From contig NZ_NQLA01000026.1 in the NCBI RefSeq assembly GCF_002252705.1, positions 1 to 45,621 on the forward strand: a stretch of DNA of 45,621 nt, read 5' to 3'. The position numbers were made by a program, and so were the translations under genes. Of this stretch, positions 28,917-45,393 are shown piece after piece. The notes under the pieces are model-generated. The model worked only from the letters and a program-made list of their open reading frames with translations. It was not told the origin of the DNA and made no database searches. Position 1 is the stretch's first letter, and every line of letters starts with the position of its first letter. The DNA is from Vulcanococcus limneticus LL. GTDB lineage: Bacteria; Cyanobacteriota; Cyanobacteriia; PCC-6307; Cyanobiaceae.

Positions 28917-28985
28917 GGGAGGAGGTGCGGGGGGATCGAACGGAGGGGGCTAGATCAGCGGCGCGCAGATCGGCGCGAGAGCTCT

Positions 28986-41913: not shown

Positions 41914-43515
41914 ATGTCCGCAGCCCCCCAGCGCCTCTCTCCGGAGCGGCGAGTACTGCTGGCGGCGGCGCTGTTCGCCCTGGTGGGCCTGCTGCTGCAG
42001 TGGTGGCGCCTGCAGGTGCTCACGGCCTCCTACGACCAGGGAATCTTCCTGCAGGTGCTCTGGAACGGCCTGCGGGGCCACCCCTTCGAGAGCACCCTCT
42101 CCTCCCAGCTCTCGACCAACGTGGTGCATGGCGGCCAGTGGCCCGCCCTCGGCTACCACCGCCTCGGCCAGCACTTCACGCCAGTGCTGGCCCTGTGGAT
42201 CCCGCTGGTGGGTCTGCTGGGGATCTGGGCCCTTCCCGTGGTGCAGGTGGGTCTGATGACCGGCGCGGGCCTGGTGTTGCACCTGCTGGCCCGGCAGCGG
42301 CTGGAACCGGGCCTGGCGGCGATGCTCACGATCGCCTTCTACGGGGCCAACGCGGTGCTGGGGCCCACCTGGGGCAACTTCACCGACCTGTGCCAGCTGC
42401 CGATCTGCGTGTTTGCGCTGCTGCTGGCCCTCGAACACCGCCGGCCCTGGCTCATCGCCCTGGCGGCCCTGCCGATCCCGCTGATCCGCGAGGACACCGG
42501 CGTGCTGCTGGTGGGCATCGGCCTGTGGCTGGCGATCCGCCAGCGGGAGCGCTGGCCAGTGGCCCTGGCCCTGGCCCTCTACGGCGGGGCCTGGGTCGTG
42601 ATCGTGACCAATGTGCTGATGCCGCTGTTCAGCGACGACAATTCCCGCCGCTTCATGGTGGAGAACTTCGGCCAGTACATCCCCGGCCAGGAGCAGGCCA
42701 CCAGCCTGGAAGTGCTGCGCCAGGCCCTGGGCCAACCGCTCACCCTGCTGCGCGAGCTGGTGAGTCCGCCGGGACAGACCCTGCGCTACCTGCTGGGCCA
42801 GGGGCTGCCGCTGATGCTGGTGCCGCTGGTGGCCCTGGACAGCTGGCTGCTGATGGGAGTGCCGATGCTGGGGCTGCTGCTGGCCCAGGGCAGCAACAAC
42901 CCGCTCTCGATCAACATTCGCTACACGCTGCTGGTGGTGCCTGGGCTGTTCGCGGGCACGGTGCTCTGGTGGGAACGGCATGGCCAGGCCTTCCAGTCGC
43001 GCCGGCTACGGGCCGTATGGGCGGGCTGCATCGCCCTGTCACTGCTGTTCACCGTGGGGGGCAACCCAAACCGCAGCCTCTCCTTTCTGATCCCTGACAG
43101 CGTTCAGCCCTGGGTCTACAGCTCACCGCTGGCCCAATGGCACCACGGCCAGCAGGCCCACCAGGCCCTGCAGCTGATTCCGGCGGGAGCGAGTGTGGCG
43201 GCCAACACGCCATTGGTGCCCCACCTGGCCAGGCGCGAAGTGCTGGTGCGCTTCCCCGATGGCGTGACCTATCTGGATCGGGCTGGCCAGGAGCGCCAGG
43301 TGGAGTGGATCGCCGTTGATCTGGATTGGTTCCGGCGCTACGGAGTGGCCTTTCGCCGCGACCAACGGGCCCTGGAGCGAAGCCAGGAACAACTGCGCGA
43401 GCTGGCCGGCCGCTATGGCGTGCAGACCGTCCGAGACGGGGTGGCCGTGCTGCAGCGCGACCGCGCTGACAACCCGGCCGCCCGCCGGGCACTGACTCCC
43501 TGGCTGGAGCCCTAG
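41914..43515 (+). CDS. DUF2079 membrane protein (first copy)
   Basis: 533-aa DUF2079 protein, a GT-C-like polytopic membrane family. About 11-12 helices. The diagnostic region is YDQGIFLQVLWNGLRGHPFESTL, then HRLGQHFTPVLALWIPL, which gives the acidic first loop and the His motif of the family. GNFTDLCQLPICVFALLLAL replaces the usual FHPE segment. The C-terminal part (from about 410) is a soluble alpha/beta region with GASVAANTPLVPHLARREVLVRFPDG. Probably a polyprenyl-phosphate-sugar-dependent glycosyltransferase, substrate unknown. ATG 41914. Confidence 0.88.
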   Translation: MSAAPQRLSPERRVLLAAALFALVGLLLQWWRLQVLTASYDQGIFLQVLWNGLRGHPFESTLSSQLSTNVVHGGQWPALGYHRLGQHFTPVLALWIPLVGLLGIWALPVVQVGLMTGAGLVLHLLARQRLEPGLAAMLTIAFYGANAVLGPTWGNFTDLCQLPICVFALLLALEHRRPWLIALAALPIPLIREDTGVLLVGIGLWLAIRQRERWPVALALALYGGAWVVIVTNVLMPLFSDDNSRRFMVENFGQYIPGQEQATSLEVLRQALGQPLTLLRELVSPPGQTLRYLLGQGLPLMLVPLVALDSWLLMGVPMLGLLLAQGSNNPLSINIRYTLLVVPGLFAGTVLWWERHGQAFQSRRLRAVWAGCIALSLLFTVGGNPNRSLSFLIPDSVQPWVYSSPLAQWHHGQQAHQALQLIPAGASVAANTPLVPHLARREVLVRFPDGVTYLDRAGQERQVEWIAVDLDWFRRYGVAFRRDQRALERSQEQLRELAGRYGVQTVRDGVAVLQRDRADNPAARRALTPWLEP

Positions 43516-43521
43516 AGAACT

Positions 43522-43600
43522 GTCCAGCAACACGCTCCAGCTAAAACGATCCAGACAAATCAGTCCAGGCAAAAAAGTCCTGGCAAAACGATGCCCCTGG
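43522..43600. repeat. Degenerate 14-bp tandem repeat
   Basis: The anchor TCCAG or a variant starts at 43523, 43536, 43550, 43564, 43578 (TCCTG) and 43592 (TGCCC), that is at 13, 14, 14, 14 and 14-bp steps. The fuller unit resembles GATCCAGGCAAAAC. The A-rich half of each unit reads as a T-tract on the minus strand, downstream of the hairpin, so the tract may serve as a run of U-stretches helping termination. Confidence 0.6.
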
Positions 43601-43628
43601 AACCAACCTTGCGGAGGGTCCCAGGGGC
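43593..43628 (-). terminator. Hairpin terminator for minus-strand transcript
   Basis: GCCCCTGGAACC (43593-43604) and GGTCCCAGGGGC (43617-43628) form a 12-bp stem with a 12-nt loop. On the minus strand the one imperfect pair is a G-U wobble, on the plus strand an A-C mismatch, so it is built for minus transcription. ATCGTTTTGCC and then T6 follow downstream on that strand. It ends the unit containing DUF2079 copy 2 and the 17-codon ORF. Confidence 0.75.
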
Positions 43629-43683
43629 TCTCGCCGGGTCCGCTTTGCCGCGGAACCGAATGATCAGGAATCAGGCGCCGAAA

Positions 43684-43737
43684 TCAGCCGGCGTTCTCCG
43701 CGATCAGCAGACCCTGCATGGAACAACTGTGACTCAC
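43684..43737 (-). CDS. Candidate 17-aa small peptide
   Basis: GTG-started ORF of 17 codons: MSHSCSMQGLLIAENAG, stop TGA. It is preceded by AGGAGGAGGTG (43741-43751), the strongest Shine-Dalgarno-like sequence I noticed in the window, with a few bases of spacing to the GTG. It lies 90 bp downstream of DUF2079 copy 2 on the same strand and 55 bp upstream of a terminator hairpin. I do not recognise the peptide. It could be a true microprotein, a leader peptide of a riboregulator, or chance. A second in-frame ATG gives an 11-residue form. Confidence 0.4.
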   Translation of the reverse strand: MSHSCSMQGLLIAENAG

Positions 43738-43827
43738 GGGCACCTCCTCCTTGGTTTGGATGGTTGACAGCCGGCGATGCATCCGGAACAGGGAAACTGC
43801 AGGCGAGCTGCACCGACCCTGCCCACA

Positions 43828-45354
43828 TCACTGCTGACGGGACTTCGCCATCGTAGGGGACTTTGCGGCCGAGCGACGCTCGAACAGCCAGACATCATCC
43901 CGCTGAAACCGGATTGACCAGGCCGGATCCGCCCGCAGTTGGCGCAGCAGCCTCCGGATCAACTTGGGTGAGGCTTTCCAGCTGGCGCGACGGGCATCCA
44001 CCAGCACCTGATCCGCGCCGGAGAGGTTGGCGGCCGACCGGGAACTGAGCAGATCAATGGCTGGACGCCGGGCCAGATGGGCAGCCAGGGCATTGGTGGC
44101 CACCACGGAGGCCCCCGGGTGCACCAGCGCGATCGCCTGTCGGATCGCCGGGGCGTTATCCAGGGAGTCCTGAAACGGGCCCAGGAAGAACGACAGGCGC
44201 GAGAGTGACACAAAGGCGATGAGCGTCCAGCCCACCACCACCGGCAACAGGCGGGGCCTCAGCCAGGCGGGATAACCAGCGCGCCCTGCGGGACCGGCGG
44301 GAGCCAAGGTGGACTGGACCTGGGCCACCAGCAGCGGCACCAGAAACAGCGAATAGTGATGCACCAGATCCTTCAGGCTCGCCTGGGAGGCCAGCAGATT
44401 GAGCAGCAACAGTGGCGCGAACGGCAGCAGGCCCGCCAACAACCCCAAGCGCCGGTTGTGCAAGAGCAGATAGAGAACCGGCGCCAGCAGCAGCAGCCCA
44501 TAGGCCAGGTTGGCCCCTGACAAGAGCTGGCCGACCAGGGAGCCCAGTGCCTGCATCACAAAGCCTGCCCCGCCACCGGAGCCTGCTTCCCTCTCCAGGC
44601 CAAACTTGCCCAGGTGACGGCTGAGGGAGGCGGCCTCACCACCGAAGGCGGGAATCAGCCATCCACCGATCAGAAGCAACCAGCTGGCGGCCAACCCGCA
44701 GAGCACCAAACCGAGCCAGCGGCGCCCCTGCAGCAACAGCCAACCACCAAAGCCCAGCACCAACAGAGCCAGGGAGACTTTGCAGGTGAGGGCCAACAGC
44801 AGGCAGCCGACCACCTGCCAATCGGCGCTGCGACGACGCTCCTCGATCAACACGATCGCCTGCATCACCAGCGGAAAAGCCAGTGTCTCGGGGTGAAAAT
44901 CGAAGATGGCCGTGTTGAACACGACCGGGTAGAGCACCAACACCCACAGGCTGGTGCGGATCGCAGCCGGCCCCAGGTGGCGCCGCTGGGCGAGGCGCTG
45001 CAGGGGGAAGACCGCGGAGGCCAGGGCCGCCGACTGGAGAGCCAACAGGGTGTAGACCGATGGCAGCAGCCGATCAATCCATCCCAACGGGTAGAGCACG
45101 AGGGCGCCGTGATCTCCCAGGATGTGAAATCCCAGAAAACTGCTGAAGGGCGGCAGGCCCTGGCCAATCAGATAGACGGCCTGATCAAAGATGCCCAGAT
45201 CCCAGGCGGAGGTCTGAAACCAGGTGTGACGGAGCACCACGGCCCCGAAATAGAGGGCAAAGGCAGACCAGAAGAACAGCCAGACGGACGGATCAAGCCG
45301 GCCCGACGCGGGGCCCGCAGCGGCTCTCCCCATGCCGGGCAAGAACCTTGGCAT
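43828..45354 (-). CDS. DUF2079 membrane protein (second copy)
   Basis: 508-aa DUF2079 protein with about 11 helices and an acidic loop after the first helix: WFQTSAWDLGIFDQAVYLIGQGLPPFSSFLG, then HILGDHGALVLYPLGWIDRLLPS, and FDFHPETLAFPLVMQAIVLIEERR, the family's FHPE motif, intact here unlike in the first copy. VHHYSLFLVPLLVAQVQS is also characteristic. The C-terminal soluble part has GASVVATNALAAHLARRPAIDLLSS, parallel to the first copy. ATG at 45352-45354; TTG 45369 is an alternative. It begins 41 bp past the psbD terminator hairpin. Probably a polyprenyl-linked sugar transferase. Confidence 0.9.
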   Translation of the reverse strand: MPRFLPGMGRAAAGPASGRLDPSVWLFFWSAFALYFGAVVLRHTWFQTSAWDLGIFDQAVYLIGQGLPPFSSFLGFHILGDHGALVLYPLGWIDRLLPSVYTLLALQSAALASAVFPLQRLAQRRHLGPAAIRTSLWVLVLYPVVFNTAIFDFHPETLAFPLVMQAIVLIEERRRSADWQVVGCLLLALTCKVSLALLVLGFGGWLLLQGRRWLGLVLCGLAASWLLLIGGWLIPAFGGEAASLSRHLGKFGLEREAGSGGGAGFVMQALGSLVGQLLSGANLAYGLLLLAPVLYLLLHNRRLGLLAGLLPFAPLLLLNLLASQASLKDLVHHYSLFLVPLLVAQVQSTLAPAGPAGRAGYPAWLRPRLLPVVVGWTLIAFVSLSRLSFFLGPFQDSLDNAPAIRQAIALVHPGASVVATNALAAHLARRPAIDLLSSRSAANLSGADQVLVDARRASWKASPKLIRRLLRQLRADPAWSIRFQRDDVWLFERRSAAKSPTMAKSRQQ

Positions 45355-45393
45355 CGGCAGGCGCCCCAACAGCGATACAGCCTAAGCCGGCCA

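Follow-up and report, generated by a model that had tools for sequence, protein, structure and literature searches.

The window, by which we mean the whole 45,621-nucleotide stretch of the Vulcanococcus limneticus LL contig analysed here, carries towards its end two genes for DUF2079 membrane proteins, and on the minus strand between them lies a short open reading frame. An earlier note, made from the letters of the DNA, had picked out this frame as a 17-codon ORF behind the best Shine–Dalgarno (SD) of the window and ahead of a terminator hairpin. Direct reading of the minus strand bears out the ORF and the strong SD just upstream of its GTG: AAGGAGGAGGTG-CCC-GTG is followed by the 17 codons MSHSCSMQGLLIAENAG and then by UGA. 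The SD core GGAGGAGGTG occurs twice in the window against an expectation of 0.25, and since by eye no start codon stands at the customary distance from the other copy, at 28918 (+), the label "best" is a fair one. The hairpin does have a 12-bp stem on this strand and is weaker on the other: it folds at −34.5 kcal/mol on the minus strand (43585–43635) versus −27.9 kcal/mol on the plus strand. The features at the locus are collected in Table 1.

Table 1. Features at the locus, with positions in the window and the basis on which each was placed.
Feature	Position	Strand	Basis or remark
DUF2079 membrane-protein gene	41914-43515	plus	convergent toward the RNA
Intrinsic terminator, extended GC stem then UUUU	43585..43634	minus	fold z −5.6
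Predicted RNA of 259 nt, conserved +1 G through terminator U run	43585..43843	minus	+1 column; whole-RNA fold z −3.1
3' structured domain	43636..43714	minus	P3, P4 and small hairpin P5 at the stop codon
P3	43714-43706 with 43644-43636	minus	with P4 pairs codons 9–14 to the 3' UTR
P4	43702-43696 with 43655-43649	minus	with P3 pairs codons 9–14 to the 3' UTR
Candidate anti-SD strand directly 3' of the stop codon	43666..43679	minus	can pair with the SD; excludes P5
17-codon frame, GTG start, UGA stop	43684..43737	minus	conserved in relatives
UGA stop	43686-43684	minus	direct reading of sequence
GTG start	43737-43735	minus	direct reading of sequence
SD core, GGAGGAGGTG	43750-43741	minus	5 nt ahead of the start codon
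5' structured domain: helix P1, helix P2, CGAAUG-type conserved bulge (here CGGAUG), variable hairpin	43766..43838	minus	covariation
DUF2079 membrane-protein gene	43828-45369	minus	flanks the RNA upstream
−10 element TACGAT (consensus TANNNT)	43850..43855	minus	fixed position in relatives

Used as a DNA query, a 271-base segment of the locus found matches in 25 of 60 related genomes (its own included), one in each and all within the same family, at 81–93% identity in the 24 non-self genomes. With the SD exact in 84 of 88 copies, this degree of identity upholds the view that so strong a site here is not due to chance, and the conservation of both ORF and SD in relatives is the opposite of the outcome that the earlier note had named as counting against a gene. 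R1, a covariance model built from 24 sequences and spanning the SD to the 3' domain, matched 203 of 400 Cyanobiaceae genomes, in 39 of 59 genera (146 of 251 among the good genomes), with one match per genome except for four genomes with two. A class-wide search with R1 matched 26 of 290 genomes, every one in Cyanobiaceae and none outside that family, and the 13 listed genomes of genus g40 (1.6–1.7 Mb) gave no match. The filters of the genome searches are strict and may have caused misses; when 16 genomes that lack a listed match were searched more sensitively, a single match came back (L231, E 0.003), which on reading was judged chance and rejected as a family member. An exact core pattern matched 110 stretches of titled contigs, with Synechococcus WH7803, RCC307 and WH 5701, Prochlorococcus sp. 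MIT 0701, and Cyanobium and Aphanothece records as carriers among the 80 matches listed. The pattern is also carried by a contig titled as a Bifidobacterium breve MAG (L133, CALPNT020000072.1), probably a mislabelled bin. Viral contigs gave 0 matches to one degenerate pattern and phages and plasmids no blastn match with the queries used, which within the scope of those queries rules out a mobile or phage-borne element. We regard it as almost certain that the RNA is a real gene.

Transcription signals lie at fixed positions around this gene. In 67 of 70 aligned relatives a TANNNT box begins exactly 17 nt 5' of helix P1, and such a box falls within −22 to −14 in 69 of the 70 versus a shuffled mean of 10.7; seven nucleotides after the box stands a column with 67 G and 3 A, which fits a transcription start. 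No conserved column stands out at −35 in the 70 relatives, and a simple consensus scan listed neither a sigma-70-type promoter nor the terminator of the RNA at the locus. By eye, a GC-rich stem followed by a U run is found at the same position in nearly every relative. Judged from the sequence, the −10 element, the +1 base and the terminator point to the independent transcription expected of a dual-function small RNA, and the RNA very probably has its own transcription unit. The spacer that had been called gene-free is mostly so, save that the predicted RNA start at 43843 overlaps the final 16 bases of the upstream DUF2079 frame, which ends at 43828.

The earlier note had placed an sRNA, leader-peptide or microprotein gene at the close of a DUF2079 unit. 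A conserved minus-strand gene with a small translated-looking frame and a terminator is indeed present; the gene's own conserved −10 box and start base, together with neighbours that change from locus to locus, rule out that it is part of a DUF2079 operon. A leader peptide for a downstream gene is ruled out as well, because in the window the gene that follows runs convergently and ends at 43515. With naive ORF calls no fixed partner gene was found, the downstream neighbours differing between loci, and Pfam assigned seven neighbour proteins to DUF2079 (twice, both from the window), PMT_2, LPG_synthase_TM, E1-E2 ATPase and an ABC transporter, with one left without a family. Upstream and on the same strand, psbD, recognised by an exact C-terminal string, ends less than 400 nt away in 27 of 88 loci and lies 0.6–1.4 kb upstream in seven further loci; it was not seen in the remaining 54, many of which are short or cut stretches. 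The contig end at 45621 truncates a psbD gene in the window itself, which was recognised by eye from its C-terminus.

For counts of RNA anatomy, 88 copies were gathered from 88 loci using R1. Eight of these (L018, L012, L103, L105, L070, L073, L077 and L085) were skipped in the 5'-domain set as the motif was unrecognised or the contig cut; of the 80 5'-domain sequences left, alignment A3 holds 70 and alignment A4 holds 55. Alignment A5 holds 66 of the 88 copies; it omits near-duplicates as well as variants whose frame is broken, whose 3' UTR is short or which carry long inserts. In the 5' domain, changes on both sides occur in 13 of 16 pairs, with 140 such cells versus 47.7 in shuffled alignments. 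Cells are paired in 97.5% of cases versus 30–52% when the structure is slid along the alignment, a control that favours the structure, as this came from the alignment of 70 sequences, largely overlapping with the 55 that were tested. The window sequence of this domain is not unusually stable by itself (z −1.8, 9 of 200 shuffles as good). Taken over the relatives, covariation very strongly supports the predicted fold of the 5' domain.

R2, a model of the 5' domain, matched once each in 119 of 222 near-complete genomes of the family, and in the class 21 of 290 genomes, all Cyanobiaceae; those R2 places that were compared by eye abut R1 places. A riboswitch shared with other genes is rejected on this single match per genome and on the adjacency to R1 in the places so compared. 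At least 14 R1-positive genomes have no R2 match, 13 of genus g6 plus G189. In some genus g6 loci such as L018 the 3' part is kept where R2 fails, and their 5' domain looks, by eye, enlarged or altered.

The 3' domain folds codons of the frame onto the 3' UTR. In a model-fitted alignment, nine of its 25 pairs show changes on both sides versus 2.5 in shuffled alignments, and 96.1% of cells are paired versus 94.8% shuffled. Taken singly the window's 3' domain is mildly stable (z −1.6), and the whole RNA from the window is more stable than its shuffles (Table 1). Two further pairings were considered and dropped, as by eye neither seemed to be kept in diverged members: within the 3' domain a GAUC/GAUC pseudoknot, and for P1 a pairing with a second copy of GCCGGCUGA.

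The ribosome site and frame are kept with equal regularity in the R1 copies, bearing in mind that these counts are conditional on R1 because R1 itself contains the SD and the frame. The SD GGAGGAGGTG is exact in 84 of 88 copies, the distance from the final GGAGG to the start codon is 5 nt in 84 of 86, and 17 codons plus stop are retained in 86 of 88. The start is GTG in 48 and ATG in 38 of the 86, and its first base has changed in seven events, always between A and G; the stop at codon 18 is UGA in 78, UAG in four and UAA in one of 83 sequences. In-frame stops in codons 2–7 number 0 among 71 distinct frames versus a column-shuffled mean of 6.4 (P(0) = 0.0005), and 13 and 11 in the other two frames. 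This count applied no filter for inner stops but excluded L025 and L085 by hand, of which L085 has one. Under a null that draws each change anew from the substitution spectrum found elsewhere in the RNA, 15.5 in-frame stop events would be expected and 7 are seen. Codon tests were run first with L025, L084, L085, L061 and L071 left out; L061, L071 and L084 were restored for later frame counts, and L025 and L085 stayed out because neither has the 17-codon frame. These features argue that the frame is probably translated.

They also bear on a reading in which the RNA is a purely noncoding small RNA, GGAGGAGGUG serves as a motif for pairing or for binding protein, and the frame is open only incidentally. 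Conservation that acts at the RNA level is what this would predict, and L025 keeps the fold without the full frame; yet the absence of stops from codons 2–7 (the hand-excluded L085 apart), the restriction of the first start base to A or G, the use of three different stop codons at codon 18 and the nearly constant spacing between SD and start all speak against an incidental frame, and we hold this reading to be distinctly unlikely. In L025:1442-1566 (−), whose genome is about 71% complete, one base is deleted and the frame is left with 10 codons; the paired 3' strand of this copy has matching changes, and the helix is kept despite the broken frame. L085 (G080, C1:2023850-2023975) is a second, decaying copy 296 nt downstream of psbD, with the intact copy about 5 kb away; its SD is gone, its third codon is a stop, and the terminator is kept.

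The check on codon substitutions came out differently from that on conservation, in that selection on amino acids was not detected in the frame although the frame is preserved. Parsimony on a tree of 83 sequences scored the changed codons in frame as 54 synonymous and 217 other, and gave much the same in the other two frames (49/182 and 56/181). Under the substitution null 77.8 synonymous events are expected in the true frame versus the 70 of 324 that were counted, and the BLOSUM score of the replacements, 0.72 versus 0.91 under the null, is not better than the null. Because these values are no better than the null while in-frame stops are avoided, the frame is kept while its residues follow constraint on the RNA.

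A rival explanation takes the 17-residue peptide, with its core GLLIAENA, as the product and the folds as mere control of its mRNA. A very strong SD, and a start, frame and stop that persist in 86 of 88 copies, are as expected for such a microprotein gene, as are near-invariant residues (G9, E14 and A16 in 82, 83 and 81 of 83 sequences; L10, L11 and I12 in 77–80) and replacements in codons 8–17 that are milder in the true frame (mean BLOSUM62 −0.29) than in the other two (about −1.4). This contrast, however, vanishes under the substitution null, with 19 of 96 events in codons 8–17 synonymous versus 17.6 expected and a BLOSUM score of 0.71 versus 0.78, a test of limited power at 96 events. Moreover, third positions change least in these codons (22 events versus 38 and 36), codons 15 and 17 change mostly to other residues, and codons 2–7 vary freely, with 51 synonymous events versus 60.2 under the null. 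There may be constraint on a few residues (G9, E14, A16); a microprotein gene appears rather unlikely.

Directly behind the stop codon lies a segment that is able to pair with the SD in a single register. The duplex between the two has a mean z of −1.07 over 73 sequences (below shuffled in the mean, 24 sequences with p < 0.05), versus mean z values between −0.40 and +0.85 for eight other segments. Cells of this pairing are paired in 83.0% of cases versus 41–61% when slid; column shuffles give 82.7%, because the SD side hardly varies. Changes on the 3' side preserve the SD pair in 50 of 111 events versus 33.0 expected. In the core segment of the window the predicted fold with this pairing is 3.4 kcal/mol better than the fold in which the SD is free, and among 65 sequences it is energetically favoured in 26 and unfavoured in 39. 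We treat the SD:anti-SD switch as a candidate and not as a result.

The reading that we place first, at a little short of an even chance, is that of a translated structured small RNA in which the passage of ribosomes, and not the peptide, sets fold and activity. The gene would be a nearly always single-copy, independently transcribed structured RNA of Cyanobiaceae, the small cyanobacteria of ocean and lake, and its frame would be translated, the act of translation being what matters. A ribosome crossing codons 8–17 would strip P3 and P4, and one terminating at the stop codon would cover the SD-complementary strand just after it, so that ribosome traffic would switch the RNA from its closed fold to an open one, with an exposed 3' strand, and back. 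The exposed strand might then pair with other RNAs or lead to decay, making the RNA a regulator gated by the availability of ribosomes. In favour of this translation-gated reading stand the occurrence in 203 of 400 genomes, the covarying folds, the fixed spacing of −10 element, +1 base and SD, a frame that is kept and avoids stops while its amino acids are unselected, the pairing of the frame strand with the 3' UTR, the capacity of the SD to pair with the post-stop segment, and the loss of both SD and frame in the decayed L085. Against it, the SD:anti-SD helix draws on one-sided changes, stays within the range of column shuffles and is unfavoured in 39 of 65 sequences, L025 keeps the fold with a 10-codon frame, R2 misses at least 14 genomes that R1 finds, and the 5' and 3' domains of the window taken alone reach z values of only −1.8 and −1.6. 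A bolder form, a free-standing sensor of ribosome traffic with an ultra-strong site, irrelevant amino acids and two competing folds that switch its activity in trans or its lifetime, is offered as a tentative and somewhat doubtful proposal.

Several known systems come close to such an RNA. Leader-peptide attenuators of the tnaC and ermC type share the short frame, a fold that overlaps it and a downstream terminator, and there, too, the position of the ribosome would decide the fold; in contrast, no structural gene follows the terminator here, the convergent gene ending at 43515 and downstream neighbours varying. Type I toxins are hydrophobic membrane peptides that go with an antisense antitoxin RNA, and the window peptide, with a GRAVY of 0.3 and a polar N-terminal half, is not such a hydrophobic peptide. 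Rfam 15 gave no gathering-score match in the window, and among six of 25 loci searched up to E 5 the sole overlap was a sub-threshold plant microRNA model at the terminator of L018 (23 of 95 bits, E 1.8). A known Rfam RNA, including the glutamine-II "downstream peptide" riboswitch, is rejected on the lack of a gathering match in the window. In dual-function small RNAs, which likewise stand free and enclose a short frame, the peptide serves as a functional product; here, unlike there, no amino-acid selection was found and the frame is a strand of the conserved fold. RNAIII and SgrS/SgrT are named as such RNAs in PMC2518516, and VcdRP/VcdP (PMC8672173) is counted with them here.

Among picocyanobacterial RNAs, Yfr6 and Yfr9 of Prochlorococcus MED4, with possible frames of 33 and 44 codons (PMC1242208, PMC2518516), share a length of about 240–290 nt, an internal short frame and conserved flanks with the RNA described here, whose frame has 17 codons and which found no match in the 13 genomes of g40, presumed from genome size to be high-light Prochlorococcus, the kind to which MED4 belongs. 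Yfr103, likewise structured and conserved, occurs in marine Synechococcus and in some Prochlorococcus, where it is very abundant (PMC5069720), and prompts the alternative that our RNA is an already described picocyanobacterial sRNA, be it Yfr103 or one in transcriptome papers. The same paper gives Yfr103 seven paralogues of 290–328 nt in CC9605, whereas the present RNA is about 259 nt long and was matched once in each of the 203 genomes save four, and never more than twice. Likewise, 14 one-contig genomes of genera g5 and g57 have one strong match each (E 1e-25 or better), G080 adding a degenerate one and the remaining 14 matches having E values of 0.9 or worse. Identity with Yfr103 is rejected on this misfit of copy number and length. 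As for the imperfect palindrome that Yfr103 has at −29 to −58 from the start, columns of the 70 relatives were tabulated upstream to about −40, and between there and about −15 none is strongly conserved. The literature searched gave no description that we recognised as this RNA, and none of its papers had the peptide strings; the RNA may already be listed in transcriptome tables or supplementary files beyond those papers. We consider a previously described sRNA unlikely, and the RNA is apparently uncatalogued.

Conserved sequence and covariation from Cyanobium to Prochlorococcus MIT 0701, in an RNA that has no Rfam gathering match, make it a candidate core regulator. Picocyanobacteria account for a large share of ocean photosynthesis and have few protein regulators. 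If translation without selection on the peptide holds true, the logic of leader peptides would be extended to a free-standing RNA. In four copies from genus g68 (L078–L081) the 3' UTR is much shorter and the stop is UAG; over codons 8–16 they do not differ from the common form, and these codons remain pairable, by eye, with a rewired 3' strand.
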